DNA of 35,564 nt from a virus. Positions 3 to 30,865 of this stretch are shown here, one piece after another (positions within the stretch are counted from its first letter, which is position 1; the number at the start of each line of letters is the position of its first letter). Both the position numbers and the translations under genes were made by a program. Location: positions 1 to 35,564 of IMG/VR virus record IMGVR_UViG_3300012986_000002, one strand, 5' to 3'. Below the pieces are notes generated by a model that searched no databases, was not told where the DNA came from, and saw nothing but the letters and a program-made list of their open reading frames with translations.

Positions 3-1268
3 GCAACTGGTGCTGAAGGTTTACAGGGTCAGCCTGGGATTGCCGGCCCGCAAGGTGACAAAGGCGATATTGGCAATCCAGGAATGCAAGGCGTTCCCGG
101 TGAAAAAGGCGATCGAGGCGATCGAGGTCTAGTTGGCGCTACTGGCTCTCAAGGAAATCCAGGCTTAACCGGCCCACAAGGCAGTCCCGGAATAAAAGGC
201 GATCGTGGCGATCGAGGAATTGCTGGCGATATGGGCGCAACTGGCGCAACTGGCCCGATCGGCTTAACCGGCCCCGCGGGTCAAAAAGGCGATCGCGGTG
301 ATCGAGGAATTCCAGGCGAAATGGGTTCGCAAGGTCTTCAAGGCAATCCCGGTACACGTGGCGAACGGGGAGAGCAAGGAATTCAAGGCATACCGGGTGA
401 TATCGGGCCGACTGGTCAAATGGGGCCTGCAGGTGCAACCGGAGCGCAAGGTGCTCAAGGGCCTCAAGGAATTCAAGGGCGACCGGGCTTAATTTGGCGT
501 GGAAATTGGAACCCAACAATCAGCTACGCCATGTTTGATGCGGTTGCCTACAACGGCAGCAGCTACATTGCCAACGCGCCAAGCATAAATTCTGTACCGC
601 CGTCGGCATTCTGGACTTTGGGAGCTAAACAAGGCGATCCAGGTCTTCAAGGACTCCCCGGAGCTAAAGGTGATACTGGAGCGATCGGTCCGACCGGAGC
701 GCAAGGTGCAACCGGAATGCAAGGTGCAACGGGTCCCGCTGGAGCGCAAGGGCCTCAAGGACTGAAAGGTGATACTGGTTCACCAGGTGCAACCGGAGCT
801 ACTGGTTTAACTGGTGCGACTGGTGCGACTGGAGCGCAAGGAAATCCCGGTATCGCTGGACCGATCGGTCCTACCGGCCCTAAAGGCGATACTGGCCCAA
901 CAGGGCCAGCGGGTCCTGCTGGTGCAGGGGGTATTGTCTGGGGCGAATGGCTCAACATTCCTGTGTTAATTGGCAATGGCACTTTAAGAGTTCGCCGATC
1001 TGGAAACTTACTGCACCTTCAAGGAGGAACCCAAGTAACAGCACCATCTGCTACCGGGACACCTAGTATGACTTTAGCCAATGTTCCATCAGGATTTGGT
1101 GTTACACAAAGCAAACCGTTCCCTGTTTATGCGAATCCATCTTCAGGAACTCACATAACTGTAGGTAGTGTCACTTATGCCAATAGCGGAATCATTGTTT
1201 TGAATTTCGCAAAGGATGCCGGAACAATAAGCACGTACTACGCGATCGATCAGCTCTTAGTTGACTAA
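3..1268 (+). CDS. Collagen-like phage fibre/adhesin protein, 5' partial
   Basis: The reading frame is open at the left edge, so the true start lies outside the window. Gly-X-Y triplets run to about base 485, stop for a roughly 45-residue segment, resume from about 630 to 925, and end in a globular C-terminal domain (about 926-1268) of beta character. The interruption starts GLIWRGNW and has W, Y and V-x-Y-N-G-S-S-Y spacing resembling the small carbohydrate-binding modules (CBM5/12-like) found in phage tail fibres. Collagen-like repeats in phage usually form trimeric stalks and the C-terminal domain nucleates trimerisation. Role in host-surface binding is inferred. A cellular collagen-like surface protein is the alternative. 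Confidence 0.8.
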
Positions 1269-2212: not shown

Positions 2213-3078
2213 ATGATGTTGCCACAATTAGCCAATACTTACAGCCCAACAAAAAACTATGGGGTAACAGAATGGTTTAGCAGTCCTAAACTAGATGGAG
2301 TCCGCTGCTTATATGAAAATATGACCAGTGGATTGAGAAGTCGTAGCTTGCGGGGCGCGTAGCGCCATCGGGCTTGAATCGATATTCAGGAATGACTGAG
2401 ATTGAGGAAATATGCGAAAGTATCCGATCGACTAATAATCTATCTTTTATAGACGGTGAGTTGTACATCCCTGGAACTATTTTTGATGTTATCTCAGGAA
2501 TAGTCCGCAGTAGAAAAACTGTAGAATCTGTAGTAGCAAATAAACAAAAAGTTCAGTTCCGCATCTTTGCGATCGGGTTCAATCAATTCCCGACAGTGGA
2601 GACAGTTCATGAAGTAGATCAGGTCAAGCTAATTTTCCCGGCAATGGGGAAAGTTAGCTACGTCCCTCAGAAATTGATTGAAAATAATCCTTTGGTAATC
2701 CAAACTGAAGCTGAATTAGTCAAAAGTTCTGGACTCTCAGATGAAGGGATAATGCTGCGGAATCCGAACTCTATTTACTCCGGGGTTCGATCGAACAATC
2801 TCCTAAAAGTGAAAAACTTTGTTAAGAACAACTTTACGGTGGTTGGGTTTACCAAAGGTAGTGGCAAATATGCCAAGTCTTTGGGTAATTTACTGATTCG
2901 GGGAATGATTAACAATCAAATTATTAATAGTCGAGTCGGCACAGGATTTACTGACTTGGAGCGATCGACAATATTTGCAAACCAAGCTGATTATTTAGGC
3001 AGAACGCTGGAAGTGGTTTATCTTGGCGTGACCGCTACAGGCTCTCTACGGCATCCAGTGTTTTCGGGATTTGTGTGA
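2213..3078 (+). pseudogene. ATP-dependent DNA ligase paralogue 2, split by a 23-bp repeat
   Basis: The gene starts at ATG 2213, 9 bases after AAGGAG (2198-2203). After 43 codons a 23-bp repeat (2344-2366) brings a TAG at 2360-2362 and shifts the frame; the remainder is open from TTG 2374 to 3078. Removing the 23 bp gives one 280-residue ligase colinear with paralogue 1. The motifs are canonical here: S-S-P-K-L-D-G-V-R, F-I-D-G-E, D-E-G-I-M-L-R-N-P, L-L-K-V-K, and a C-terminal R-H-P-V-F. The better-looking ligase of the pair is therefore the broken one. A fragment starting at 2374 or 2392 would lack the motif I lysine and could not form the adenylate. Confidence 0.85.
2344..2366 (+). repeat. 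Very small palindromic repeat, 23 bp, disrupting ligase 2
   Basis: It starts TAGCTTGCGGGG and ends in the palindrome GGCGC-GTA-GCGCC. It sits between CG (2342-2343) and ATCG (2367-2370); deletion recreates CGATCG and restores the ligase frame. Confidence 0.92.
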
Positions 3079-3149: not shown

Positions 3150-3731
3150 CTATTGGACAATTCCTACAAGTTCCGGCACTTTCCCCGCTAATTTCCAGCC
3201 TGTGGTAGGCGAGTAAACCGGGGTGCTAGCGTTAACTCCCCAGCCTGCTAGTTCACTTGTTGGTACTTCAACGAAGGAACTGTCAGGAGCTTTGATTTGC
3301 CAGGTTTGCTCAGGATGACTCAAGGTTTTTTGCGCTAGCAAGTCGGCTGGAATAGGAGGAGGTTGAATGGCTGCAACAGGAGGAACAGGAGGAACAGGAG
3401 GAACAGGAGCGACAGATTGAGCAGTAGATTCAGCAGCAGGTGCAGGCTGTGGTTGGCTTGGATCAGGCTGAACTAAAGTCAAAAAGGATTTGCTGAAAGT
3501 CAACTTAGGTCTGCGAGAAGCTTTAAAAGTGATAGCTTCTCCAGTCCGAGGGTTGCGTCCTTGACGTTCAGGTCGATCGGTAGCTTTTAAAATCCCTAAC
3601 CCTTCCAATGGTAGCTTTTCACCATTGCGGAGAGTGAGTGACATGAAGGCTACTGCTGAATCCCATACCGCGTTAACGGTACTTTCAGCGAATCCAGTTG
3701 AAGCTTTTACGTGGTCAGTTAAGGCAGACAT
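3150..3731 (-). CDS. HU-family DNA-binding protein with Pro-rich linker and C-terminal GYF_2-like domain
   Basis: Residues 1-90 are HU-like: an N-terminal helical part and then the beta-arm signature (R-N-P-R-T-G-E) followed by K-A-S-R-R-P. HU/IHF proteins bend and compact DNA. Residues about 95-130 are a Pro/Ala/Val linker with repeated P-P-V, and about 140-193 form a small domain (W-Q-I-K, S-E-L-A-G-W, G-W-K-L-A) that resembles a GYF_2-type protein-binding fold. At 193 residues it is about twice the size of plain HU. It is downstream of the polymerase-like gene on the same strand, about 46 bases away. DNA binding is well supported by motif; the role of the tail is a guess. Confidence 0.75.
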   Translation of the reverse strand: MSALTDHVKASTGFAESTVNAVWDSAVAFMSLTLRNGEKLPLEGLGILKATDRPERQGRNPRTGEAITFKASRRPKLTFSKSFLTLVQPDPSQPQPAPAAESTAQSVAPVPPVPPVPPVAAIQPPPIPADLLAQKTLSHPEQTWQIKAPDSSFVEVPTSELAGWGVNASTPVYSPTTGWKLAGKVPELVGIVQ

Positions 3732-3777: not shown

Positions 3778-6489
3778 TTAATTGGGTGGTAGACCAAAAT
3801 CTTCCGGCTTATAAAGACCTGCTGGCATTTTATTTTCCAAGTAATCGATCTGTTCTTGACTAAGCGATCGATTATACAGCCGAACTGTTTTCGTAATGAT
3901 TCGCCCAGCTTCGTCCATATATTTGCCGTTGGTGTAACAGCGCATCTCGCGAGTTTCGCCGATCGCAACTTTACTTTGGTACTCTTTCGGTATCCATCCA
4001 AGGGGGAAGTACCCGATATTTCTGGTACTTTCAGGAAAGCTCATATCAACACCAAGTTCCATCCGCGCCTTTGTCTCACCCGCAGCAGGTTTCATCCGTT
4101 GAACAATCCGAACAAGAACATTTTGCCCTTTCCATTCACCTTTACTCCACACATTGGGTTCTTGCTTGTGAACGTTGTATGCGTTGAAATAAGGCAAAGT
4201 ATCAGGATTTTCTTGTAAGTCCATGAGGATTTCGTCCCTGAATAAGTTGAACACCAGCGAGCCGGTGCTAATTTCGGATGCTCCGGTATGAACCGCTCTC
4301 CAGTAAGCAGCAGCCCAACTTTTTTCGCCGAAAGCTCTGCCTTCATCATCCGCAACATGATTTAGCGCAAATTCTTTGAGAGCTTGAAATTTAGCCGATA
4401 CCTCACGAATTTTGGTAGTATCGCCATCATTTTGCTTTTTCCATTCGATCGCAACCTTCATTTCGTCCCCGTATCCTTTGCGCTGTTCAAAAGCAAAATC
4501 TAATTGCCTTCGATCAACCACAACACCCACAAAAAGTGCATTCTCAAAGGAGTTGATGTCGATGTTGGTTTCCAATTGAGCTGGTCGCCAGTAGGTGTTA
4601 ACGACTCTGACCAGCCGGGAAATAGTATCGATCGCATCGTCGGCAACGGCACAGGGTCGAGTTAAATAAACCGCATCCTCTTTAAAATCTTTGAGCCAGG
4701 GAATTTTCCCGCCGTCTCCTAGACCATTGAGATATTCGGTAACAGCTTGCAAACCCTTGTCATTATTGGGATATGCCGATTTCAATGAGTCAACCGCGAT
4801 TTGGAGTTCCTGACTGAGAAAGTCGATGATTGACATCTCGACTGGAGCTGTTTGCATCCCGCCGTCCGGAATCATCAGGACTATTCCTTCAGCTCCCGCA
4901 CCTCGGGCCCGACCCAGAAGTGAGGCAACAATCCCGGTGCTGTCATTCATGCTGTTAACGGCGACTTCTTGGAGAGTTCCAGGCAACGCCATTTTTGGAA
5001 GCTTGTCAACGGATGGAGGTTTGTCAAAGTTGGCGATCGCATCTCTCAGAGCTGGATACTCCTTGGATGCGATGAGCTGAACAAAGTCCCCGTCAAAGTC
5101 TCTGCCCAAATTCAGCATGAGTTTTGTCGAGGCTGCCATCAATCCATAGCCTCTGGCATAAGTGCCTTCATGACGGTTGATCCAGAGCTGACAATCTCCC
5201 CAGTGGCGCATGGGGTTGCAAAATACGATGTACTCGCCGGGAGCCATGCCAGGTGCACAAAATACTTTTTCCCTAAAAGTGGTTACGTTGTTAGCGTCCG
5301 TGGTTTCGTATTTTTGGAAATACTCATCAGGTTGCGACATTAGCGACCAAAAACGAACTCCGGCTGCTTTGGCTAAGTTGAGCCAAACAACGCGAAGCCT
5401 TTCAGCTACCTTCGTAGTGATGTAGGGATGCAGTAACAGCCTGCCTTTTATGTCATATTTAATAATCTCCATTGCTGTGTTGACATATTCAGCTTCTGAC
5501 TGGATATTATCGCCCTGTTCGAGTTCTTGGGCAGCTTCTACTTGATGAATTCGTAACTCAGTAGCCAAGGCTTGAATTGAGTTAGTAGCTGCTACTAATT
5601 TTTCACATTTGGCTCGGAGCCGGCTAATTATGTTGTCTTCTTCAAGCGTCTGAAACTTAAACCACTGAAACAGCATCCAGCCTGCTTTGGCTGTGCGCTT
5701 TTCCGCCTCGAATACTAACCCACACAGTAATTTATCTGTGTAGTTTCCAAGTGCTGGTTTTTTGCCTTTGAGCGAACTCCAAGGGATGACCAAATCATAG
5801 CCCGAGTCATCTAGTTCGGGATTATAAGCGATCGTCCCTTTTGCTACCCATTTTTTAAACGCTGCTATCCGAAACTGAATAGGAATATCAGCATCAATCT
5901 CATCAGGATTAAATTCTACTGTTCCCGCACCGAGTAATTGCATGAATTCTCTCGAAGCTTTTGCGTGACTGTCTCCGCTGTTCCAGTGCCGTTTATTTAC
6001 TGGATCATCTTGCGGGTTGCCGTTACCATCTTTAGCTGTATCATCAACAATCACATAATTGAATTTTCGCCCAATTAAATGCTTGCATCCTGTGTGAAGA
6101 ATACTGCCGTAAATGATTCGTTTCCATTGTTCCTTTGCTAGAGTTCCATAGTAGTCTTTCCCGATCGGAGCTAAATTGAATGTAAACCTGCCATGATTGC
6201 GGGAGTTGCTAGCTAAATCCAGTTGATATCGATCGGTTTTGTTCGCTATAAATGGATTCAGCAGTGCAGAATTTTTAGTGTTTTCTGGAATTTCACCAAT
6301 ACAAAATCTATCTTTTCCAACATCTTTGTGTAACCCGGAAAGCAGAGTATTTCGCAAAGTTACTTTAGGAGTATTTGACCATTGTTTTGCAATGCAGTCC
6401 CATACACCCAAAACAGCAGTCGTTGCTATTTTTGCCAGTGTTTCATCTGCGCCGTACCAGTCGTAGGTCAGTTCATATTCTGTGGGCAT
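3778..6489 (-). CDS. Two-barrel RNA polymerase-like protein (DxDGD), single subunit
   Basis: This 903-residue protein carries the hallmark of RNA polymerases with two double-psi beta-barrels: G-R-D464-F-D466-G-D468-F, where the three aspartates would hold the catalytic Mg2+. Upstream are N425-P-M-R-H-W-G-D432, recalling the R-N-P-x-x-H-x-G-D element of QDE-1/RDR-type enzymes, and K217-G-T with a D-L-V-I-P..K-G stretch that could be the lysine-bearing first barrel. The size is close to that of the single-subunit RNAP YonO of phage SPbeta. I infer a divergent phage-type single-subunit RNA polymerase, DNA- or RNA-templated unknown. It starts 4 bases after the stop of the upstream membrane-protein gene (TAATCAGATG), implying coupling. 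No homology search was possible; motif resemblance is the evidence. Confidence 0.6.
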   Translation of the reverse strand: MPTEYELTYDWYGADETLAKIATTAVLGVWDCIAKQWSNTPKVTLRNTLLSGLHKDVGKDRFCIGEIPENTKNSALLNPFIANKTDRYQLDLASNSRNHGRFTFNLAPIGKDYYGTLAKEQWKRIIYGSILHTGCKHLIGRKFNYVIVDDTAKDGNGNPQDDPVNKRHWNSGDSHAKASREFMQLLGAGTVEFNPDEIDADIPIQFRIAAFKKWVAKGTIAYNPELDDSGYDLVIPWSSLKGKKPALGNYTDKLLCGLVFEAEKRTAKAGWMLFQWFKFQTLEEDNIISRLRAKCEKLVAATNSIQALATELRIHQVEAAQELEQGDNIQSEAEYVNTAMEIIKYDIKGRLLLHPYITTKVAERLRVVWLNLAKAAGVRFWSLMSQPDEYFQKYETTDANNVTTFREKVFCAPGMAPGEYIVFCNPMRHWGDCQLWINRHEGTYARGYGLMAASTKLMLNLGRDFDGDFVQLIASKEYPALRDAIANFDKPPSVDKLPKMALPGTLQEVAVNSMNDSTGIVASLLGRARGAGAEGIVLMIPDGGMQTAPVEMSIIDFLSQELQIAVDSLKSAYPNNDKGLQAVTEYLNGLGDGGKIPWLKDFKEDAVYLTRPCAVADDAIDTISRLVRVVNTYWRPAQLETNIDINSFENALFVGVVVDRRQLDFAFEQRKGYGDEMKVAIEWKKQNDGDTTKIREVSAKFQALKEFALNHVADDEGRAFGEKSWAAAYWRAVHTGASEISTGSLVFNLFRDEILMDLQENPDTLPYFNAYNVHKQEPNVWSKGEWKGQNVLVRIVQRMKPAAGETKARMELGVDMSFPESTRNIGYFPLGWIPKEYQSKVAIGETREMRCYTNGKYMDEAGRIITKTVRLYNRSLSQEQIDYLENKMPAGLYKPEDFGLPPN

Positions 6490-6493
6490 CTGA

Positions 6494-7945
6494 TTAAATG
6501 AAGTCCATAAACTTGAGTCTACCTGTTGCTATTCTAGCAACTTTGTCTGCCCCTAATAATGCTGCAATTTGTTCTTGTCCAGTGACTTGAATAGGATTAT
6601 CAGGATTAGTTAAATTATAACAAACAGCATACTCGTTTTTAGGATCTAACCCGAGTCCTATAATTTGGCTCATACGAAGTCGAGCAGTGTCTCGCATCTC
6701 TTTAGCTGAGGCTTTGAATTGTTCCAATATCTCGATCGTGTTAGTATCGTACATGGAAGCTACTTTCAAATTAAATCGGCTAGGATTATCTGCTAAATCT
6801 CCAAAGATGTAGAGAGTTTTTGCTAGGGCAGTTTTGTTTCGCATGGCTAAAATAATGATGATCGAGACGATTAAAATCGGGCCCGCCATTCCCAACAAAA
6901 ACATCCAGGCAGTAACATTCATATTCGTCGTACCAAAAACAGTCATTAACAAAGCTTCGTTAGCTTTTAAAGCAGAAGCAGCAAAAAATCTTAGTGCTTG
7001 AGCTCCTGAACTGCCAGAAACTTTGAGAACAACCGAAGTTACACAATGAGTAAGAGCTGAAATTAAACTGGCTGGCATTCCAATCAGATTCATACAATTG
7101 GTTAAAAACCAGCTTGCTATGCTGGAAATTATGCCTGCGGTAATCCCTACAGTCGCCAAAGCACCGCTAACAGCTACGATCGGCGCTACCACCGGAACAA
7201 CTATCAAAGCGCTTGCATTGACCGCAACACTTCGGATTGACAAAATTCGATCGTTATAAATTGAATTGATGTCGTAGCTACTGCTAGCTGTGATGACTCT
7301 GGGAGAAGGAATCGGCGCATCACCCATAGCAACCAAACTTCTAGCGACATTGTTGTATTTAGCTCTGGTTCTTCTTCTTTCATTCAATTTCAAACGCTGA
7401 TCCTGTAATTCCCGGTAATATTGATCTCTTAATCTTCTGGCTTCTTCCTGCATCTGAAGCTTTTTTTGATTAATTGATGACCAAGCCGAATCCATAGCGT
7501 AGTCAACTTTTACTCCCATTTTGGACAATTCTGGGAGATTTAAACTGTTGTTGAAAGCATTTATGACATCGCCATAGATACCTTTCTCTGTACTGGTAGA
7601 AGTTAATGCAGCCAAAGTTCTTTCACCAGCACCCGCTAGATTGTCATAAAGTTTGCTGTTGTAAGCTCTGTTTATGCCGTGGGATGTTTCCAGAAATGCT
7701 GTACCACATTGACCTATCAGCATAGGAAATGCTGCTATATTTTGTGACGATTCAAGCCAACTGAGGATAGCTTTCCCCCCTGGATGGCTTAATATTCCTT
7801 GAATTAGGGGTTGTTCCATCAACCATTGTTGTGGAGCATCCATGATTTTTTGGATTTCAGTCACGCCTGTTAGTGATTGAAAGTTTGCCCAGACATCGCC
7901 GATTTGATCGGTGATATCTGGAGATTGGGGTGTTTCTTCTGGCAT
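6494..7945 (-). CDS. Coiled-coil membrane protein of unknown function
   Basis: I chose the ATG at 7945 (M-P-E-E-T-P), giving 483 residues; a TTG at 7987 would add 14. No clear Shine-Dalgarno sequence precedes either. The first 200 residues are soluble-looking and end in a charged coiled coil (Q-M-Q-E-E-A-R-R-L-R). Two to four hydrophobic segments follow in the middle: one long stretch rich in V/A/I/G, one near M-P-A-S-L-I-S-A-L, and one rich in I/L ending before A-M-R-N-K. The last 110 residues are again soluble. I do not recognise the family. It immediately precedes the polymerase-like gene, so the two are likely co-expressed; membrane anchoring of a transcription or packaging complex is only speculation. 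Confidence 0.65.
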   Translation of the reverse strand: MPEETPQSPDITDQIGDVWANFQSLTGVTEIQKIMDAPQQWLMEQPLIQGILSHPGGKAILSWLESSQNIAAFPMLIGQCGTAFLETSHGINRAYNSKLYDNLAGAGERTLAALTSTSTEKGIYGDVINAFNNSLNLPELSKMGVKVDYAMDSAWSSINQKKLQMQEEARRLRDQYYRELQDQRLKLNERRRTRAKYNNVARSLVAMGDAPIPSPRVITASSSYDINSIYNDRILSIRSVAVNASALIVVPVVAPIVAVSGALATVGITAGIISSIASWFLTNCMNLIGMPASLISALTHCVTSVVLKVSGSSGAQALRFFAASALKANEALLMTVFGTTNMNVTAWMFLLGMAGPILIVSIIIILAMRNKTALAKTLYIFGDLADNPSRFNLKVASMYDTNTIEILEQFKASAKEMRDTARLRMSQIIGLGLDPKNEYAVCYNLTNPDNPIQVTGQEQIAALLGADKVARIATGRLKFMDFI

Positions 7946-8015
7946 AGTAATTATGTTGGATACTGAACTAATAATATTATAGTTCAAGTCACATTCATAA
8001 TCTTATATAGGATAA

Positions 8016-8077: not shown

Positions 8078-8503
8078 TTAATGCGGGTTAATAACTTGTT
8101 CTTTAGCAAGTCGATCGCACTCAGCTAGTTCAGGAGTTGAGTTCCGTGCTAACCACAGCCATGTCACCTCATGAACTTTTGCTAACTTATCAAGTTCTTC
8201 CCACAAATCTTGGTTAGCGTTACGTTTCCAACTTTTAGCCATCGTGTTTACGACGTAGGTTGAATCTGAAAACAGTGTAACTTTGCAAGGTTTCTTGAGA
8301 GCTTTCAAAGCTTCGATCGCTGCTGTTAATTCCATGCGATTGTTAGTATTGGTTGTCTCAGATTTACCACTAATCGCTTTTTTATTTGGCTTACCTGGAA
8401 TTGTAAGTATTGCAGCCCAACCACCGGGCCCGGGATTTCCTGAGCAAGCACCATCACAGTGAATATTAACCACACTTTTTGTTTCAGTTACATTTGCTGT
8501 CAT
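8078..8503 (-). CDS. rnhA: Ribonuclease HI
   Basis: RNase HI cleaves the RNA strand of RNA-DNA hybrids, for example primers in phage replication. The 141-residue protein shows D17 in H-C-D-G-A, E58 in N-R-M-E-L, D80 in F-S-D-S-T and D130 in E-C-D-R-L-A, the four metal-binding acids of the family. The His loop of the E. coli enzyme (near H124) is replaced by A-R-N-S-T-P-E, so that auxiliary histidine is absent here. The start at 8503 is preceded on the coding strand by the GCTTCGC leader motif 32 bases upstream. It diverges from the gene at 8595. Confidence 0.92.
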   Translation of the reverse strand: MTANVTETKSVVNIHCDGACSGNPGPGGWAAILTIPGKPNKKAISGKSETTNTNNRMELTAAIEALKALKKPCKVTLFSDSTYVVNTMAKSWKRNANQDLWEELDKLAKVHEVTWLWLARNSTPELAECDRLAKEQVINPH

Positions 8504-8522: not shown

Positions 8523-8542
8523 TCAAAATCTCAAAGCGAAGC
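8523..8542 (-). promoter_or_regulatory. GCTTCGC-N10-TGA leader motif before rnhA
   Basis: On the minus strand GCTTCGC (8536-8542) is followed after ten bases by TGA; GCTTCGC ends 32 bases before the ATG. The flanking bases A and T extend the mini-stem. Confidence 0.65.
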
Positions 8543-9224: not shown

Positions 9225-9755
9225 ATGAACGATCGTACCATTAAACAACGGTTTGAAAAACACATTATCCGTAAAGATGATTGCTGGATAACAGATTTGC
9301 ATTGTAATCACAGAGGTTATCCACGAATTAAAGTGAATAATAGAGGAATAAATGCTTCTCGTGTAAGTTTTCAGCTATACAACGGAGAAATCCCTGAAGG
9401 AATGCTTGTATGTCATCGTTGCGATAATCCAGGGTGTGTAAATCCTTAACATTTATTCCTCGGCACTCATAAGGACAATATGAGAGATATGATAGAAAAA
9501 GGACGATCACTTAAAGGCTCTAAAACCTCTCAATCTAAACTGACTGAAAAAGAAGTGTTTCAAATCAAAGCCTTGTTATCTGAAACTAATTTAACCCCTA
9601 AAAGAATTGCTAGTTTATTTGATATTTGCACACGAACTATCTCGTATATTCAACATGACGGTATCTGGAAACACGTTAATTATGTTGCTAACCGCAAAAA
9701 TAACAGCAAAAGTAAGAAATCTGTAGGATGGAAACAGTTAAGTTTATTTGACTGA
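9225..9755 (+). pseudogene. HNH endonuclease (HNH_3 type) with an in-frame TAA
   Basis: The gene is colinear with the intact HNH gene at 11439. It has the pattern C-W-I-T-D, R-V-S-F-Q-L-Y-N, L-V-C-H-R-C-D-N-P-G-C-V-N-P, then TAA at 9447-9449 where the paralogue has Glu (N-P-E-H-L-F-L-G-T). The same frame continues through H-L-F-L-G-T-H-K-D-N and a C-terminal helix-turn-helix-like region to 9755. A single G-to-T change (GAA to TAA) would explain it. The nuclease motif is cut before the second histidine, so the truncated product should be inactive unless the stop is read through. Confidence 0.82.
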
Positions 9756-9759
9756 TTTG

Positions 9760-10047
9760 CTAAAGCAGTCCCATAATTTGCAAATGTCGATAAACCACAA
9801 TTTCCTCAATCCCAACTTGACGATCGATTGCCTTCATAGATTGCCCCTCAGCTCTGAGCAATCGAATACGTTCTCTCAGAGCTTCAATTTGATCGGTCGA
9901 TCGAGAAGATGCGACTTGCTTAGGTTGTAAGTTCCATGCCCTGATACTGCGCTGTACCTTAGCTGCTGTCGTGTCGGTGTGTTGAGCTATCTGAGAATAA
10001 GATAGCCCTTGACGGTACAAACGGATTTGTTCTTCTATATTGCTCAT
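9760..10047 (-). CDS. Small protein with two helix-turn-helix-like units
   Basis: This 95-residue protein has two repeats of a DNA-binding-like pattern: L-Y-R-Q-G-L-S-Y-S-Q-I-A and L-L-R-A-E-G-Q-S-M-K-A-I, each followed by a recognition-helix-like segment. It may be a small regulator or the DNA-binding part of a recombinase. It sits between the broken HNH gene and the first methyltransferase fragment, its 3' end 5 bases from the HNH stop. No clear Shine-Dalgarno sequence or leader motif is seen. Confidence 0.6.
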   Translation of the reverse strand: MSNIEEQIRLYRQGLSYSQIAQHTDTTAAKVQRSIRAWNLQPKQVASSRSTDQIEALRERIRLLRAEGQSMKAIDRQVGIEEIVVYRHLQIMGLL

Positions 10048-10063
10048 CTCTTTGACAGAATTA

Positions 10064-10345
10064 TTAATATTGAAGTAGAGAAGCTAGAAATTGGAGACGC
10101 ATCAATGGAACAGTTGCCTGGGGAACACAAATTGATAAGCCTGTTAGATTGATTGCTTCTGCCCTGCCGGGAGTTCTGCGTTCTACTCCTGGGTTGGCTG
10201 GCGGGGAATTGAATCGCCACCACCGCTCATAATGCAATCGAGCCAGGTACTCGGGAACGCCATCAACCACAGACATAGCTCCGGGTTTAGTTTCTGGGTA
10301 GTGGGTAAACGACCTTGCAATTTCAATCTGACTTCTAATGTAAAA
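10064..10345 (-). pseudogene. C5-DNA methyltransferase 3' fragment A
   Basis: Encodes the last ~90 residues of a Dcm-type methyltransferase: I-E-I-A-R-S-F, Y-L-A-R-L-H-Y-E-R-W-W-R, R-R-T-P-G-R-A-E-A, and a motif-X-like end A-T-V-P-L-M-R-L-Q-F-L-A-S-L-L. It matches the C-terminus of the full gene at 11922-12785 but lacks motifs I-VIII, so it cannot methylate. An ATG at 10396 opens this frame but lies before a terminator hairpin and I do not regard it as a real start. Confidence 0.75.
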
Positions 10346-10353
10346 GCTGGTAT

Positions 10354-10385
10354 AAAAAGTAGTAAGAATTAACCTACTACTTTTT
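10354..10385 (-). terminator. Terminator after HNH gene 2
   Basis: Perfect 11-bp arms AAAAAGTAGTA / TACTACTTTTT with a 10-base loop; on the minus strand it ends in a T run just past the stop of the HNH gene at 10397. Confidence 0.75.
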
Positions 10386-10396
10386 ACTTTTTCCAT

Positions 10397-11011
10397 TTAA
10401 TCACAATATTCCCAACGTTTACCGCCCGATCGCCAGCCCTTACGAATTGCTACACTAACAGAGTGATATTCTAATCCCATACTTCTAGCAGCTTCAGAAG
10501 CACTTTGAAATTCTTCTCCTGTGTCTAAGCATCTTACCTTTTTCTGAGTTTTTGAATTTCGATCGTCTTTATGTAACTGCCAATGTTCCTCATTAGTCAT
10601 TACCTCCAAGTTTTCTAAGCTGTTATCGTTTCGATTACGGTTTTTGTGATGGACTATTTCAGTTTTAGGATCGCTTACACCATAATAGGCAAGATAACGA
10701 CCTAGATATTTTTCCATAATCAACGTATGTTGAGCAACGTAATCTTTGTATTGACTTACGTTTTCTATGGTGCGAGGATGCCCCGGACAATACTCGTAAA
10801 TGTATCCACGATGGCTCTTGATAACTTGCGATGGCTTTTGATTATTGAACTTTTGTTCTCTTAAATTGACACCTGCCTTTTGAAGAATTCCGGGGATACT
10901 TTTTCTTGGACAGCCTAAGATTTTTTCAATGCTTGAGTAACTGTGTCCTCCTAAGTATAGTTCAATAATCTTTGAAATATCTAAATTCAATCCTTTTGCT
11001 TTTCTTCCCAT
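10397..11011 (-). CDS. HNH homing-type endonuclease with NUMOD-like C-terminus
   Basis: The 204-residue protein has an N-terminal helix-turn-helix-like part (residues ~10-50), a central HNH core (I-V-H-H-K-N-R-N-R-N-D-N, then N-L-E-V-M-T-N-E-E-H) and a C-terminal NUMOD1-like DNA-binding unit (V-R-C-L-D-T-G-E-E-F-Q-S-A-S-E-A-A). This is the layout of free-standing homing endonucleases, which cut DNA lacking them and spread by repair. It sits between two fragments of the same methyltransferase gene. The leader motif ends 29 bases before its ATG and directly follows the stop of fragment B. A different HNH subtype from the genes at 9225 and 11439. Confidence 0.85.
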   Translation of the reverse strand: MGRKAKGLNLDISKIIELYLGGHSYSSIEKILGCPRKSIPGILQKAGVNLREQKFNNQKPSQVIKSHRGYIYEYCPGHPRTIENVSQYKDYVAQHTLIMEKYLGRYLAYYGVSDPKTEIVHHKNRNRNDNSLENLEVMTNEEHWQLHKDDRNSKTQKKVRCLDTGEEFQSASEAARSMGLEYHSVSVAIRKGWRSGGKRWEYCD

Positions 11012-11027
11012 ATCTAGATTCCAAAAT

Positions 11028-11047
11028 GTGAAATCTTAGAGCGAAGC
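11028..11047 (-). promoter_or_regulatory. GCTTCGC leader motif before HNH gene 2
   Basis: GCTTCGC at 11041-11047 on the minus strand, ending 29 bases before the ATG at 11011. The downstream TGA position reads CAC here, so only the hairpin part is conserved. Confidence 0.5.
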
Positions 11048-11048
11048 A

Positions 11049-11395
11049 TTACATTATTTCATTTGACAACAAAGAAGCTAGAAATTGTAAACGCATCAAA
11101 GGAACAGTAGCTTGAGGAACACAGATTGATAAACCAGCTAGAGTTATTGCTTCAGCACGTCCGCGTGTGTTTCGTGGCAGTCCAACGTTGGCGGGTGGTG
11201 GATTCATTCTCCACCAGTTTTCATAATGCAATCCAGCCAAGTAAGGGGGAATCCGAGCATCCACAGGCAAACTTCTGGATGTAACTTCTGGGTAGCTGGT
11301 AAACGACCTTGCGATTTCAATATTTGCTCTAACCGATGCTGCCCAGCCCTGCCACCCTTTCCGTTGCTGGATGCTAAGGTGGTTGAAAAAACCAA
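11049..11395 (-). pseudogene. C5-DNA methyltransferase 3' fragment B
   Basis: Similarity to the full methyltransferase begins near I-Q-Q-R-K-G-W and continues through I-E-I-A-R-S-F-T-S-Y-P-E, Y-L-A-G-L-H-Y-E-N-W-W-R-M-N-P-P-P and A-T-V-P-L-M-R-L-Q-F-L-A-S-L-L to a stop at 11049. Motifs I-VIII, with the catalytic Cys, are missing. The upstream edge runs into the divergent leader of the HNH gene at 11439. Confidence 0.78.
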
Positions 11396-11402
11396 AAGTT
11401 AT

Positions 11403-11422
11403 GCTTCGCTTTTAGGTTATGA
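11403..11422 (+). promoter_or_regulatory. GCTTCGC-N10-TGA leader motif before HNH gene 1
   Basis: GCTTCGC 11403-11409, TGA 11420-11422; GCTTCGC ends 29 bases before ATG 11439. Confidence 0.65.
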
Positions 11423-11438
11423 TGTCTATTTTTTCATT

Positions 11439-11987
11439 ATGCCTCCTCGTAAAACACCTCTTCAGCAACGAATCGAAAAGCATATTATATCTAAAAATAA
11501 CTGTTGGATAACAGATATTCTTTGTACTCATGATGGTCGTCCTAGAATGTGGGTTGACGGCAAATTGAAGTTTGTTTCCCGGTTGATTTTTGAACTTTAT
11601 AACACGAAAATTCCTGATGGATATTTTGTGTGTCACAATTGTGATAATCCAGCTTGTGTAAATCCCGAACACTTATTTCTCGGTACTTTAAAAGACAATT
11701 CAGCCGATATGGTGAAAAAAGACCGTCAGGCAAAAGGCTCTAAGCATGGATTTTCTAAACTCAACGATGAACAAGTATTGACAATCAAACAGTTGTTGAA
11801 TGAAACTAAGCTAACACAGAAAGCAATTGCTGAATTGTTTAATGTGTCAAGACAGACAATTGTATTGATTGCCCTAAACAGACAGTGGAAACACATTGTT
11901 TATCAACCAAAAACCGACCAATTAAGTTTGTTTGAAGTTGATGATTTGGTTAGACAGCAAAGAAGCGAGGAACTGGACACGCATTAA
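11439..11987 (+). CDS. HNH endonuclease (HNH_3 type)
   Basis: I place the start at ATG 11439 (M-P-P-R-K-T), 29 bases after the leader motif and matching the paralogue at 9225; upstream in-frame sequence is the antisense of fragment B. The 182-residue protein has C-W-I-T-D, F-V-C-H-N-C-D-N-P-A-C-V-N-P-E-H-L-F-L-G-T, then a helix-turn-helix-like tail (Q-K-A-I-A-E-L-F-N-V-S-R-Q-T-I). The paralogue stops right after Q-L-S-L-F-D; here the frame runs on 17 residues antisense to the methyltransferase 3' end, and the two genes overlap by 66 bp. Homing-type function is inferred from family and context. Confidence 0.85.
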   Translation: MPPRKTPLQQRIEKHIISKNNCWITDILCTHDGRPRMWVDGKLKFVSRLIFELYNTKIPDGYFVCHNCDNPACVNPEHLFLGTLKDNSADMVKKDRQAKGSKHGFSKLNDEQVLTIKQLLNETKLTQKAIAELFNVSRQTIVLIALNRQWKHIVYQPKTDQLSLFEVDDLVRQQRSEELDTH

Positions 11988-12785
11988 TGGGACGGTAGCC
12001 TGCAAAGGGACGATCGACAGACCAGCTAGAGTTACTGCTTCTCGTCTTCCAGGCGTTCTACGCTTTAATCCGGGACTGACTGGTGGCGGATTCATTCTCC
12101 ACCAGTGGTCATAATGCAATCCAGCCAGGTAGGAGGGATTGCCATCATCCACAGACAAAGAGCTGGGTTCAGCTTCTGGGTAGCTGATAAACGATTTTGC
12201 GATCGTAATGTACTTTCCAATGTTGTCAGACCAGCAGGTCCACCCTTGCCGTTGCTGGAGCTGTAAGTCGTTACGGTAGGCAACGATAAACACTCTTTGC
12301 CTCTCATGTGGCGCACCGCACTCCGACGCGCTGATAACTTCAACTTCTGTTTCAAATCCTGCCATTTGCAAGGCTCCCAAGATTGTTCGCAAGCCTCTAT
12401 AAATGATGCCTTTTGGGTTTTCAATAATGACAAAATCTGGTTGGGCTTCAAGAATAACTCTGTACATTTCCCACCACAATCCTGATTGAGCGCCTGCCAA
12501 TCCTTCTTTCTTTCCTGCGTTTGATGTGTTTGTGCAAGGAAAACCGCCAATGACGATTGTAGGAAAGCCGAATTCTCTGAATTTGGGTGGATGATATGTG
12601 TTGATATCAGCCCAGATGGGGATATTAGGGAAGTGTGACTGGAGAACTTTTTGATCATAAGGATTTATTTCGACAAATTGAAATGTTTGATATCGTAGTT
12701 TGCTAGATGGTACGTCATTGCTAAAAACTAATTGTGCTGCTAATTCAAATCCTCCAATTCCTGAAAATAAACTAATTGCTTGCAT
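11922..12785 (-). CDS. DNA (cytosine-5) methyltransferase
   Basis: The 287-residue enzyme shows the C5-methyltransferase motifs: I (L-F-S-G-I-G-G-F), IV with catalytic Cys84 (G-G-F-P-C-T-N), VI (I-E-N-P-K-G), VIII (P-H-E-R-Q-R-V-F) and a motif-X-like end (L-Q-A-T-V-P-L-M-R). It transfers methyl from S-adenosylmethionine to cytosine in a specific site; the target is unknown. The recognition domain between VIII and X is short. No restriction partner is next to it, so self-protection is likely. The final residues (I-N-F-K-Q-T) overlap the HNH gene, suggesting the original stop was lost at a junction near 11936. Starts at ATG 12785, divergent from 12867. Confidence 0.88.
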   Translation of the reverse strand: MQAISLFSGIGGFELAAQLVFSNDVPSSKLRYQTFQFVEINPYDQKVLQSHFPNIPIWADINTYHPPKFREFGFPTIVIGGFPCTNTSNAGKKEGLAGAQSGLWWEMYRVILEAQPDFVIIENPKGIIYRGLRTILGALQMAGFETEVEVISASECGAPHERQRVFIVAYRNDLQLQQRQGWTCWSDNIGKYITIAKSFISYPEAEPSSLSVDDGNPSYLAGLHYDHWWRMNPPPVSPGLKRRTPGRREAVTLAGLSIVPLQATVPLMRVQFLASLLSNQIINFKQT

Positions 12786-13274: not shown

Positions 13275-13294
13275 GCTTCGCGATAAGGGAGTGA
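13275..13294 (+). promoter_or_regulatory. GCTTCGC-N10-TGA leader motif
   Basis: GCTTCGC 13275-13281 with flanking C and G pairing, TGA 13292-13294; 35 bases from GCTTCGC to ATG 13317. Confidence 0.65.
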
Positions 13295-15055: not shown

Positions 15056-15075
15056 GCTTTGCGGTAAGGACATGA
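15056..15075 (+). promoter_or_regulatory. Leader motif variant GCTTTGC-N10-TGA
   Basis: GCTTTGC 15056-15062 flanked by C and G, TGA 15073-15075. An ATG follows 36 bases later, at 15099. Confidence 0.5.
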
Positions 15076-15167: not shown

Positions 15168-16463
15168 TAAATTATAAAGAATTGCTAAAAACACAGATTT
15201 GTTAGTAAAAGTTTTAGTAAAAGTGATAGACTATTTCAATGATAGTTTTAGAGTTTAAATTGAAGGGCAAAGCGGAGCAATATCGGAGCATCGACGAGAT
15301 GATCAGAACAGCTCAATTCGTCCGAAACAAGACTCTAAAATATTGGACAGAAAATCAAGGAATTAAGCTAGTTGACCTATACAAACAATGCGCTGTTATG
15401 GCGAAAGAATTTGAATGGGCGGGCAAGCTTAACTCGATGGCACGTCAAGCTTCCGCCGAACGTGCCATTTTTGCTATTCAACGCTTTTTTGCTAATTGCA
15501 AAGCCAAGAAACCCGGAAAAAAGGGATATCCACAGTTCAAGAAGCATACTCGATCTGTTGAGTATAAAACTTCGGGATGGGAACTTTCTGCGGACAAAAG
15601 ATGCTTGACCCTTAAAGATGGTTTTGCTGCGGGGAAGTTCAAGTTAATCGGCAGTCGAGACTTGCATTTCTATGCGCCCGGTGAAATAAAACGAATCAGA
15701 ATCGTGCGTCGTGCCGACGGCTACTACGCCCAATTCTGTATTAATGTGGAGCGGAAAGAGGAGCCTGTTCTCACTGGTAAAGCTATTGGAATAGATGTCG
15801 GGTTAAACCATTTCTATACCGATAGTGATGGTGAAACGGTCGCTAACCCTCGATATCTTCGCAAGAGCGAAAAAGCTTTGAAGAGATTGCAGAAGCGAGT
15901 TTCAAGGGAAGAAGAAAGGTTCTAGTAATCGGAAAAAAGCAGTTAATAAGCTGGGAAGGAAACACCTGAAGGTCACTAGGCAGCGTGAAGACTTCGCCAT
16001 AAAGACGGCGTTGTGCGCGGTAAAATCTAACGATTTTGTAGCCTACGAAGACCTTCAGGTGCGGAACATGGTGAAAAACCACAAGCTAGCCAAATCAATT
16101 AGCGATGCAGCTTGGTCACAATTTTCTCAATGGTTGGAGTATTTTGGGAAAGTGTACGGTAAAACCGTGAGTGCGGTCGCACCTCAACACACATCGCAAG
16201 AGTGTTCAAATTGTGGCAATCTAGTTCAGAAAACGCTGTCAACTCGAACCCATATTTGTGGTTGTGGAACGATTCTCGATCGCGATCATAACGCTGCGCT
16301 GAACATTTTGGCGAAAGGGTTGAAGCAGGCAAAGATCGATTTAAATACGGCGGGGCACGCCGAAATTCACGCTTGCGGACAGACCGATCTCTACTCGCTG
16401 ATGGTGACATCAATGAGCAAATCGACTGGCTGATCCAAGAATCCCCTCGCCTTTAGGCAGGGG
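15134..16463 (+). mobile_element. IS200/IS605-superfamily element with tnpB only (IS1341-like)
   Basis: The left-end hairpin at 15134-15160 (AAAGCC..GTCCT-TCT-AGGAC-GGCTTT) and the right-end hairpin at 16443-16463 (CCCCTcGCC-TTTA-GGCAGGGG) bracket a tnpB gene. Such end hairpins are recognised by the TnpA transposase in this superfamily, but no tnpA is present. The sequence around the right end normally also encodes the guide (omega) RNA of TnpB. Exact outer borders cannot be set without the empty site. Confidence 0.75.
15239..16433 (+). pseudogene. tnpB: TnpB RNA-guided nuclease, frameshifted
   Basis: The first part (15239-15925) contains the RuvC aspartate D186 in G-I-D-V-G-L-N and stops early at TAG 15923-15925. 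Sequence in another frame continues without a break of similarity (K-K-G-S-S-N-R-K-K, K-T-A-L-C-A-V-K) through Y-E-D-L-Q-V-R (RuvC Glu), the zinc knuckle C-S-N-C..C-G-C, and L-D-R-D-H-N-A-A (RuvC Asp) to 16433. A one-base indel in the purine run near 15906-15919 explains the shift. All three catalytic acids survive at sequence level, so decay looks recent. Combined length (~398 residues) is normal for TnpB. Confidence 0.85.
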
Positions 16464-17606: not shown

Positions 17607-17626
17607 GCTTCGCTATGAAGTGTTGA
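17607..17626 (+). promoter_or_regulatory. GCTTCGC-N10-TGA leader motif
   Basis: GCTTCGC 17607-17613, TGA 17624-17626; 41 bases to ATG 17655. A GAGG ribosome site also precedes the start. Confidence 0.6.
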
Positions 17627-18901: not shown

Positions 18902-18921
18902 GCTTCGCGATAAAAAAGTGA
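18902..18921 (+). promoter_or_regulatory. GCTTCGC-N10-TGA leader motif
   Basis: GCTTCGC 18902-18908 with pairing C/G flanks, TGA 18919-18921; 69 bases to ATG 18978. Confidence 0.55.
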
Positions 18922-19419: not shown

Positions 19420-19498
19420 GGTCGATCGATAATCAATCAGTCGATCGATAGAAAGAGAAGAAATACCAGAAGTTTTTTCGTGAGGGTCGCTTTGCGAT

Positions 19499-20152: not shown

Positions 20153-20172
20153 GCTTCGCCATTAGGGATTGA
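20153..20172 (+). promoter_or_regulatory. GCTTCGC-N10-TGA leader motif
   Basis: GCTTCGC 20153-20159 with pairing G/C flanks, TGA 20170-20172; 47 bases to ATG 20207. Confidence 0.6.
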
Positions 20173-20621: not shown

Positions 20622-20641
20622 GCTTCGCGATAAGAAAGTGA
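20622..20641 (+). promoter_or_regulatory. GCTTCGC-N10-TGA leader motif
   Basis: GCTTCGC 20622-20628 with C/G flanks, TGA 20639-20641; 57 bases to ATG 20686. Confidence 0.6.
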
Positions 20642-22733: not shown

Positions 22734-22753
22734 GCTTCGCGTTAATGAGTTGA
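22734..22753 (+). promoter_or_regulatory. GCTTCGC-N10-TGA leader motif
   Basis: GCTTCGC 22734-22740 with C/G flanks, TGA 22751-22753; 29 bases to ATG 22770. No Shine-Dalgarno sequence is visible. Confidence 0.65.
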
Positions 22754-23403: not shown

Positions 23404-23423
23404 GCTTCGCCATGAGTTGTTGA
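23404..23423 (+). promoter_or_regulatory. GCTTCGC-N10-TGA leader motif
   Basis: GCTTCGC 23404-23410, TGA 23421-23423; 32 bases to ATG 23443. Confidence 0.65.
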
Positions 23424-24139: not shown

Positions 24140-24421
24140 ATGAAGAAAAAAGTAGTTATGGCTCATATTCACAGTCGTATCGCCAAACTTGCCAAGGGTG
24201 CGATCGAACGTGGAGATATTACCAGTTGCGATCGCATCTCTGACGGCTCCTATTTGATCAAGCGAATTGACCAGACTGACCGACCACAGACTACCAAATA
24301 CACTACTGTCGCTGCTGCCAGTCTCCTTCATCTTCTCAATTCTTATGCTCTAGCCAATCCCCCAGAATCAGAAATATCAGAAACAATACCAGAAACAGAA
24401 ACAAATATTGCTTCGCTGTGA
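24140..24421 (+). CDS. Small hypothetical protein
   Basis: A 93-residue basic protein (M-K-K-K-V-V-M-A-H-I-H, then A-I-E-R-G-D-I-T-S-C-D-R-I) with an acidic repeat-like tail (E-I-S-E-T-I-P-E-T-E-T) encoded by CAGAAACA-type low-complexity DNA. No Shine-Dalgarno sequence or leader motif before ATG 24140. The 3' end overlaps the leader motif of the next gene. Function unknown. Confidence 0.5.
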   Translation: MKKKVVMAHIHSRIAKLAKGAIERGDITSCDRISDGSYLIKRIDQTDRPQTTKYTTVAAASLLHLLNSYALANPPESEISETIPETETNIASL

Positions 24422-24724: not shown

Positions 24725-24760
24725 AGTACCCCTCGTGAAGGCTTCGCCGGGGGGTACTGA
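24725..24760 (+). promoter_or_regulatory. Leader motif nested in an AGTACCCC/GGGGTACT hairpin
   Basis: GCTTCGC 24741-24747 and TGA 24758-24760 fit the shared motif. Here they sit in a larger hairpin with arms 24725-24732 and 24751-24758, with GGC-TTC-GCC as inner stem. 47 bases from GCTTCGC to ATG 24795. Confidence 0.6.
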
Positions 24761-25872: not shown

Positions 25873-25892
25873 GCTTCGCTTTAGGTTGTTGG
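25873..25892 (+). promoter_or_regulatory. Leader motif GCTTCGC-N10-TGG
   Basis: GCTTCGC 25873-25879; TGG replaces TGA at 25890-25892; 32 bases to ATG 25912. CGCTTTAGGTT also pairs with AACCTAAAGCG about 25 bases upstream, so the motif is the right arm of a longer hairpin. Confidence 0.6.
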
Positions 25893-26444: not shown

Positions 26445-26464
26445 GCTTCGCTGGATGGGATTGA
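26445..26464 (+). promoter_or_regulatory. GCTTCGC-N10-TGA leader motif
   Basis: GCTTCGC 26445-26451, TGA 26462-26464; 90 bases to ATG 26542 because a low-complexity tract intervenes. Confidence 0.5.
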
Positions 26465-27551: not shown

Positions 27552-27712
27552 CAAAAGATCAAAGCAGTAACAATAGTGCTTCGCTTCAAAGCTTCGATTT
27601 TCCAGCTTAAACTATTAACAAATAAACTTAAAAATGTTAAAATGTTAATAGTTTGCCCCAGCATTGCTGATAACACTCTGGGGCATGACAAACCTAATGG
27701 AGTAGGTCTGTG

Positions 27713-30030: not shown

Positions 30031-30050
30031 GCTTCGCTATAAAGTGTTGC
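30031..30050 (+). promoter_or_regulatory. Leader motif GCTTCGC-N10-TGC
   Basis: GCTTCGC 30031-30037 starts 1 base after the previous stop codon. TG is at the expected place; 69 bases to ATG 30107 with a hairpin between. Confidence 0.5.
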
Positions 30051-30464: not shown

Positions 30465-30484
30465 GCTTCGCTGAAGGGTTCTGA
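30465..30484 (+). promoter_or_regulatory. GCTTCGC-N10-TGA leader motif
   Basis: GCTTCGC 30465-30471, one base after the previous stop codon; TGA 30482-30484; 31 bases to ATG 30503. Confidence 0.65.
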
Positions 30485-30502: not shown

Positions 30503-30865
30503 ATGTCACTGCCATTTCTCAAGAAAATTGACAATTACTCAGACTCAGAACCTTCCTCTTATTCTTTCATACATCCATCAGCTATCCCCTACGATCGACC
30601 AGGACTCAGATTAATTAACCGACTACGTTGGGATAGACAGAATATTGCACCTGAGCTAGACACACTGTTTCGTTATTACCGTAACACCTGTTGTCTTATA
30701 AAAAAGACTCAGGGCTTTGAAGCTGCTAAGTCTCCCGAAACTTACGATGAAATAGGTCAATTGTTAGCCAAGATGTGGTCGATGGCGCCTTCGCGCCCCG
30801 CAAGCTACGAACAATTAACAAAAGTGAAGCGACTGAATTATTACAGTCGTGGTGCTTCGCTGTAG
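30503..30865 (+). CDS. YYSRG-family small protein, copy 3, with 8-residue repeat insertion
   Basis: The 120-residue protein has L-I-N-R-L-R-W-D-R-Q-N-I-A-P-E-L and Y-D-E-I-G-Q-L-L-A-K-M-W. A minus-orientation 24-bp repeat (30784-30807) inserts eight residues (around M-A-P-S-R-P-A-S-Y) where copy 2 reads W-P-I-E-E-V-T. Removing it gives W-S-I-E-Q-L-T, matching copy 2. The end reads S-R-G-A-S-L because the GCTTCGC of the next leader motif has become coding and the stop lies inside that motif. Function unknown. Confidence 0.68.
   Translation: MSLPFLKKIDNYSDSEPSSYSFIHPSAIPYDRPGLRLINRLRWDRQNIAPELDTLFRYYRNTCCLIKKTQGFEAAKSPETYDEIGQLLAKMWSMAPSRPASYEQLTKVKRLNYYSRGASL
30784..30807 (-). repeat. Very small palindromic repeat, 24 bp, in frame
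   Basis: Minus-orientation copy; on its own strand the stem is GGCGC-GAAG-GCGCC. Flanked by CGAT (30780-30783) and CG (30808-30809). Paralogues lack it. Confidence 0.9.

Follow-up and report, generated by a model that had tools for sequence, protein, structure and literature searches.

We describe here an RNA polymerase-like protein encoded in a 35,564-nt stretch of DNA that was analysed as a whole (the window), with its fold match, its conserved residues, the gene cassette to which it belongs and a DNA motif of regular spacing, strand, loop rule, flanking covariation and linkage to the polymerase gene. We consider it evenly balanced whether these motifs are hairpin promoters read by this polymerase with an HU-family protein as architectural helper. 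The larger reading, in which the element would carry a private plasmid transcription system composed of the polymerase, GNA/GNNA mini-hairpin promoters and a dedicated HU-GYF factor, independent of that of phage N4 but built around an old RNAP-HU module shared with YonO phages, falls somewhat short of an even chance.

In the mechanism that we envisage, the host polymerase would make an operon encoding a membrane protein, the polymerase and the HU-GYF protein, and the element's enzyme, acting as a DNA-dependent RNA polymerase, would then transcribe the element's own small-gene array from repeated promoters. Each promoter would be a template-strand mini-hairpin, GC-G(N)NA-GC, extruded by negative supercoiling, with a TGATGTTTTT box near the start site ~10 nt beyond the hairpin and the ATG ~31 nt after it. 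HU proteins bind cruciform DNA, and the HU-GYF protein would bend the extruded DNA or keep it in place, and would also serve as a tether for the polymerase. Recognition of the motif, extrusion of the hairpin and the roles of the HU and membrane proteins are steps that we infer. How single-chain two-barrel polymerases find their promoters is an open question, and the available text of the YonO study (PMC5467207) states that the YonO promoter sequence and the need for extra factors remain to be determined. The element offers a candidate structured site and an HU-type partner, and because one genome supplies both candidates the question could be tested with few plasmids. If the proposal is correct, unrelated polymerases acquired hairpin promoters on at least two occasions, and the orthogonal transcription system of these elements would be usable as a cyanobacterial tool.

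The polymerase gene and its catalytic elements are placed as follows.

3778 to 6489, minus strand: two-barrel single-chain RNA polymerase-like protein of 903 residues, assigned from the reading frame, conservation, predicted model and fold matches
5086 to 5100, minus strand: codons of D464-F-D466-G-D468, the presumed Mg-binding triad, conserved in 19 to 20 of 20 alignment rows
5194 to 5217, minus strand: codons of N425 to D432 (NPMRHWGD)
5839 to 5841, minus strand: codon of K217 in the KGT segment, kept in all 19 rows covering K217

The 903-residue reading frame is genuine and runs along the minus strand, the plus strand of the same interval being full of stops. The elements on which the sequence-only reading had based its assignment, GRDFDGDF, NPMRHWGD and KGT, are all present with the order and numbering that it gave, and its remark that the length is near that of YonO holds, since YonO has 839 residues. 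Conservation was assessed in an alignment (A3) of the window protein with 19 of the 20 polymerase loci found on GTDB contigs, omitting L026 as a near copy of L023. D464 and D466 are kept in all 20 rows and D468 in 19, the sole exception being the truncated copy in L029, which reads DTDGG. The KGT segment is kept in 19 of the 19 rows that cover it. This conservation across 20 rows excludes a chance occurrence of the motif, and the protein has the DxDxD triad of single-chain two-barrel RNA polymerases. K217, K241 and K244 are also conserved and are candidates for the basic residues of the partner barrel; K217 is presumably the active-site one.

Bridges by sequence to known families are nearly absent. 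The only family match is to an unnamed phage family (phrog_34895, E 1.7e-60), direct scans of the 903-residue protein against Pfam and NCBIfam gave no match, and phmmer and profile searches of PDB sequences gave nothing relevant. The only sequence-level bridge found to known families is a Pseudanabaena plasmid relative, 30% identical to the window protein, which matches the Pfam RdRP family PF05183 (E 7e-5) around the catalytic motif, slightly below the curated cut-off. The best PF05183 bridge, from locus L005, reaches 22.1 bits against a cut-off of 23.8, and the window protein itself has no match. A PF05183 search of the window record likewise gave no match, but neither did its control.

An AlphaFold model of the polymerase was built on alignment A3 (pLDDT 77, pTM 0.67). 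Foldseek gives 21 matches to it in the PDB at E ≤ 0.001, and every one belongs to the single-chain two-barrel RNA polymerases, namely QDE-1, RDR2, P23-45 gp64/P74-26 gp62, gp96 and the phi14:2 RNAP. The top matches, QDE-1 and RDR2, extend over nearly the whole chain at 12–14% identity. In VIA-align the best superposition by Z is with gp64 (Z 18.5, 512 residues, 4.4 Å), followed by maize RDR2 (Z 18.1), QDE-1 (Z 13.9) and phi14:2 (Z 9.4), and the superpositions span most of residues 4–762. The best named matches in a viral structure library include a phage 'RNA dependent RNA polymerase' and the P23-45 protein A7XX94, which has the length of gp64. From the model we regard a two-barrel fold as practically certain; the two individual barrels would follow from the whole-chain matches, and the protein would be expected to synthesize RNA. 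The proposal of the sequence-only reading, a divergent single-subunit two-barrel RNA polymerase-like protein, is supported by the model and its matches, including that to QDE-1 at Foldseek E ≤ 0.001, a comparison which that reading had suggested. The predicted fold and the catalytic motif place the protein in a known kind, the single-chain two-barrel RNA polymerases, and the near absence of sequence bridges indicates that it forms a sequence family of its own.

The match to silencing enzymes raises the idea that the protein takes transcripts as its templates, as an RNA-dependent RNA polymerase. The best sequence bridge is indeed to Pfam RdRP, and QDE-1 and RDR2, both eukaryotic enzymes with RNA-directed roles, head the Foldseek matches. 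On the other side, QDE-1 itself has solved DNA-template complexes, as given in PDB entry titles, there is an equally strong structural match to phage gp64, which according to the available text of PMC10770324 extends RNA on DNA scaffolds, and the loci opened have no annotated dicer or argonaute neighbor. We therefore judge RNA-directed function to be highly improbable and take the polymerase to be probably DNA-dependent. The same source describes gp64 as a non-virion RNAP, likewise single-chain and two-barrel, with a clamp; it differs from the window protein in being phage-borne and in length (616 versus 903 residues), and the PDB sequence searches gave no sequence match between the two. YonO of Bacillus phage SPbeta, as described in the accessible part of Forrest 2017 (PMC5467207), is also single-chain, ~840–900 residues long, equipped with a three-aspartate motif and encoded by a mobile element. 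The label 'YonO-type' therefore stands for the architecture. It does not stand for the sequence, as the profile comparison with five YonO-like phage sequences is not significant (hhalign probability 0.3, with shallow profiles), and the window polymerase differs further in its membrane-protein partner and in its host phylum.

The family is not rare in cyanobacterial elements, contrary to the initial impression: tblastn gave 40 plasmid records with polymerase matches, all cyanobacterial by name and all with the protein annotated as hypothetical, and 26 of 386 sampled cyanobacterial genomes contain near or distant matches, 13 of which we counted as strong or close to complete (E < 1e-100). The available text of PMC5467207 already mentions that cyanobacterial genomes encode YonO-like proteins. 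A tblastn search of phages with the polymerase gave no match, two scans of viral contigs gave no polymerase relatives, and of 40 window proteins scanned against PHROGs none fell into a family with a capsid, portal, terminase or tail description, the record being linear and possibly a partial contig. The plasmids of close relatives are annotated with ParA/ParB, CyRepA1, VapE-type and integrase genes, and one close relative lies at 4.1 Mb of a large contig in genome G080 that is probably a chromosome. Residence on cyanobacterial plasmids and integrated elements is the best explanation of this distribution, and the window, though classed as viral, looks like a fragment of a plasmid-like element.

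The polymerase gene is embedded in a cassette.

6494 to 7987, minus strand: membrane-type protein (phrog_34545), encoded immediately before the polymerase gene with a 4-nt gap
3150 to 3731, minus strand: HU-family DNA-binding protein (PF00216, E 6.7e-17) with a Pro-rich linker and a GYF_2-like C-terminal domain
8078 to 8503, minus strand: RNase H (PF00075, E 8e-29), with a hairpin site before the gene

In 19 of 24 loci the polymerase is preceded, within 2.5 kb, by a homologue of the membrane protein, which is in pieces in L001 and L021. The membrane protein's model is helical and of moderate confidence (pLDDT 64), with no fold match in the PDB at E ≤ 0.001. The HU gene starts ~46 nt downstream of the window polymerase, and an HU-like gene is found downstream within 2.5 kb in 16 of 24 loci. 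GYF_2 is recognized in 7 of 12 members of the HU family; the window copy carries no GYF_2 match at E 0.1. An HU gene just downstream is shared with YonO: in all six YonO-type phages examined (phi3T, SPBc2, Perkons, PMBT24, BUCT082 and TR-TP2, the HU gene of the last being named by structural annotation) it follows the polymerase shortly, with one or two ORFs intervening in three of the six. As phi3T and SPBc2 are close relatives, these represent about five cases of the pairing rather than six, and the trait is one observed here rather than part of a published definition. The BUCT082 polymerase is without the DxDGD string. In the titles, abstract openings and passages covered we recognized no description of an RNAP-HU pair or of the hairpin motif, and found no paper pairing 'YonN' with 'YonO'; the cyanobacterial family itself is perhaps described in Iyer 2003 or Ruprich-Robert 2010.

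The position of RNase H just upstream of the cassette, together with two ligase-like ORFs near the window polymerase, could indicate that the enzyme makes primers for plasmid replication and that the motif belongs elsewhere. This is very unlikely in our view, given that RNase H is found in only one of the other loci compared and ligase in nine, that the conserved partners are the membrane and HU genes, and that the hairpin sites precede many gene starts instead of marking a single origin.

These sites, the candidate promoters of our preferred reading, and the genes presumed to be their targets are the following.

12840 to 34413, plus strand: long cluster of small genes, the presumed targets, opposite to the polymerase operon
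8536 to 8542, minus strand: hairpin site GCTTCGC followed by TTTGAGATTTTGATGTTGTT, just before RNase H (PWM score 13.8)
11041 to 11047, minus strand: hairpin site just before the HNH endonuclease gene at 10397–11011, below the PWM cut-off
11403 to 11409, plus strand: hairpin site; an in-frame ATG of the HNH-like ORF at 11226–11987 follows after 29 nt
13275 to 13281, plus strand: hairpin site
17607 to 17613, plus strand: hairpin site
18902 to 18908, plus strand: hairpin site
20153 to 20159, plus strand: hairpin site
20622 to 20628, plus strand: hairpin site
22734 to 22740, plus strand: hairpin site
23404 to 23410, plus strand: hairpin site
24410 to 24416, plus strand: hairpin site
24741 to 24747, plus strand: hairpin site
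25873 to 25879, plus strand: hairpin site
26445 to 26451, plus strand: hairpin site
27578 to 27584, plus strand: less typical hairpin site, with the next start 125 nt away
30031 to 30037, plus strand: hairpin site
30465 to 30471, plus strand: hairpin site
30854 to 30860, plus strand: hairpin site
15056 to 15062, plus strand: variant site GCTTTGC, template loop not GNA
19489 to 19495, plus strand: variant site GCTTTGC, template loop not GNA

The motif was first seen in the window as an intergenic repeat, GCTTCGC followed by about TTGATTTT. In general form it is GC-TN(N)C-GC, ~31 nt before the ATG of the element's small genes, and hence GC-G(N)NA-GC on the template strand. Many of the small window genes have homologues in relative loci, where the cluster is usually opposite to the polymerase operon. 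The window contains 16 motifs on the plus strand, which is that of the small genes, and 4 on the minus strand, two of which precede minus-strand genes (RNase H and HNH). In other loci, 8-mers derived de novo from the regions before the small genes give related sequences: GCTATCGC in L002, L011 and L018, GCTACCGC in L015, L023, L026 and L028, CTACCGCT in L017, GCTGTCGC in L024 and GCTTCGCT in the relative L016. The strand bias is marked, with counts of 16 to 0 in L002, 15 to 0 in L011, 13 to 0 in L018, 10 to 0 in both L015 and L016, and 9 to 2 in L024. GCTATCGC differs by a single base from the dispersed host repeat HIP1 (GCGATCGC), and the motif might thus be a host repeat of this kind spread by chance. 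HIP1 is, however, palindromic, whereas the motif is strand-specific, as in L002, L011 and L016, and restricted to the element, so that the likelihood of this origin is close to nil.

A count that leaves the loop free (GCN3-4GC), made before 368 ATG starts on the strand that carries the small genes in 14 loci, peaks at 30–32 nt before the ATG, with 53 matches in these three positions and 0–4 at most others. Such a near-fixed distance to the ATG fits an mRNA leader element too. The loops at 25–37 nt before the ATG are TATC, TACC, TTC, TAAC or TGTC in 77 of 94 cases. The bases flanking the hairpin covary: among 87 sites remaining after removal of near-duplicates, the first flanking pair is Watson-Crick in 36, of four types, compared with 17.4 in shuffles (0 of 10000 reach 36), and the second in 37 against 25.0 expected (15 of 10000 shuffles). 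The third and fourth pairs show no covariation in this set. Slid controls are themselves mildly elevated (170, 80 and 110 of 3000 shuffles for pairs 2-1, 2-3 and 3-2), so only the first flanking pair is strong. T-T occupies the flanking position in 29 of the 87 sites. Downstream of the hairpin T10, G11 and T13–T18 are conserved, and the profile of the sites shows nothing like a sigma70 -10 box. A TTGATG box was considered as a sigma70 -35 element and rejected, as its -10 would coincide with the start codon. DNA and RNA folding of the mini-hairpins differs little between the strands, because the folding programs appear not to model special loops.

In the available text of PMC4686876 a 'GNA or GNNA loop' closed by two or more G-C pairs, the form that the template strand has here, defines hyperstable mini-hairpin DNA, GCGAAGC having a Tm of 78 °C. 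According to the accessible part of PMC4496689, the N4 virion RNAP promoter is a small-looped hairpin in the template strand that contains a sheared G:A pair and lies shortly before the start. Supercoils made by gyrase extrude this hairpin, and EcoSSB holds it in the role of architectural factor. At the level of sequence the window motif likewise places a small hairpin, its loop of the G:A type, in the template strand ahead of genes. The N4 stems are longer, the architectural candidate here would be HU instead of EcoSSB, and the N4 enzyme is T7-like rather than two-barrel, so the likeness would be convergent. In the SPbeta late genes, which are transcribed by YonO, the motif was not found, there being 2 isolated GC hairpins before 31 genes.

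The polymerase could be real and the motif nevertheless an mRNA leader or processing element, a translation signal or 5' hairpin in transcripts made by the host enzyme. A spacing nearly fixed at ~31 nt would be unusual for promoters with a free leader length, and an SD-like string precedes the ATG in 36 of 101 sites. We nonetheless find this explanation unlikely. In the template DNA the invariant loop ends produce GNA or GNNA, which form a special kind of DNA hairpin, whereas on the RNA side they give UNNC loops, for which we know of no stable class; the site profile has no sigma70 -10 box; and few repeated sites lie outside elements that carry the polymerase. The motif is carried by 96 of 244 small genes with an upstream gap, leaving ~60% without it, which counts against the promoter reading.

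A related alternative is that the motif is the operator of a repressor or other DNA-binding protein encoded by the element, and not a polymerase promoter. Linkage to the element cannot separate the polymerase from other element genes, but the variation in the loop, together with the covariation of the flanking pair, suggests a structure rather than a fixed sequence read in duplex form, and no sigma70-like box accompanies the sites, which makes an operator quite unlikely. Under the promoter reading, the lack of a site directly before the membrane-polymerase-HU operon, apart from the RNase H site in the window and in L024, is as expected if the host polymerase makes this operon.

Across genomes, the repeated hairpin sites appear to occur almost only beside the polymerase gene. 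As many of the loci are related, the counts cannot be treated as independent, and some of the genomes scanned had also served to derive the pattern. In its form GCTATCGCN(9-11)TGNTGTTT the motif is present in 22 of 386 cyanobacterial genomes, and all five genomes with at least three matches are among the 13 polymerase-positive ones, which has a probability of 1.8e-8 by chance, some positives having supplied the pattern. Every one of the 26 matches in these five genomes shares its contig with the polymerase gene or part of it; the remaining 17 genomes contain 18 matches, several recurring in apparent coding sequences. In keeping with the linkage, no PWM site was found in L001, a plasmid of Synechocystis sp. 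B12 where the polymerase is frameshifted and the membrane protein split. Against it, the polymerase-bearing L021, L022, L025, L027 and L029 have no PWM site either, and L013 and L031 have no clear positional excess of the motif; part of this absence may come from short flanks or diverged motifs. With a free-loop pattern, 22 polymerase-positive genomes gave 71 matches, 55 of them no more than 90 kb from the gene or part of it and 16 elsewhere, compared with 40 for the reversed pattern over the same genomes. Five of the 16 distant sites are on one contig (C133 of G013) in which no polymerase match was found. In the genome of one relative, the element contig of 61 kb carries 6 of the 22 matches, and these six share a strand.

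In all six phages with YonO-type polymerases that we examined (L085-L090), an HU-family gene lies a short distance downstream of the polymerase gene, with one or two additional ORFs separating the two genes in three of the six.

Additional, remote lineages of DxDGD proteins are present in cyanobacteria (loci L006, L007, L008 and L055-L081). These proteins are ~1,100-1,300 or ~2,200 residues in size, and their genes are both plasmid-borne and chromosomal. No annotated HU neighbor was seen at the three of these loci examined with their flanks.

The window carries the following features:

3-1268 (+), collagen-repeat protein, extending past the contig end
1348-2199 (+), ligase-like ORF, first of a tandem pair, matching ATP-dependent DNA ligase phrog_114
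2374-3078 (+), ligase-like ORF, second of the pair, also matching phrog_114
within 9225-12785, several HNH-type endonuclease ORFs
11922-12785, DNA methyltransferase
15239-16433 (+), transposase match (phrog_506), divided between two ORFs

The tandem ligase-like ORFs have homologues in 8-9 relatives. A stretch of the methyltransferase is common to minus-strand ORFs within 9225-12785, which suggests an insertion or duplication. The split transposase is probably a decayed gene.

Five hairpin sites lie in a 3.5-kb stretch of a cyanobacterial genome (G013:C133:485641-489125), on a contig with no polymerase match, and this cluster is read as a stray or decayed element. On the small-gene strand of the polymerase-bearing locus L013, AGCGAAGC and ATAGCGAA are enriched upstream of genes; both are the usual hairpin motif reversed, and thus both motif orientations may be present in this locus.
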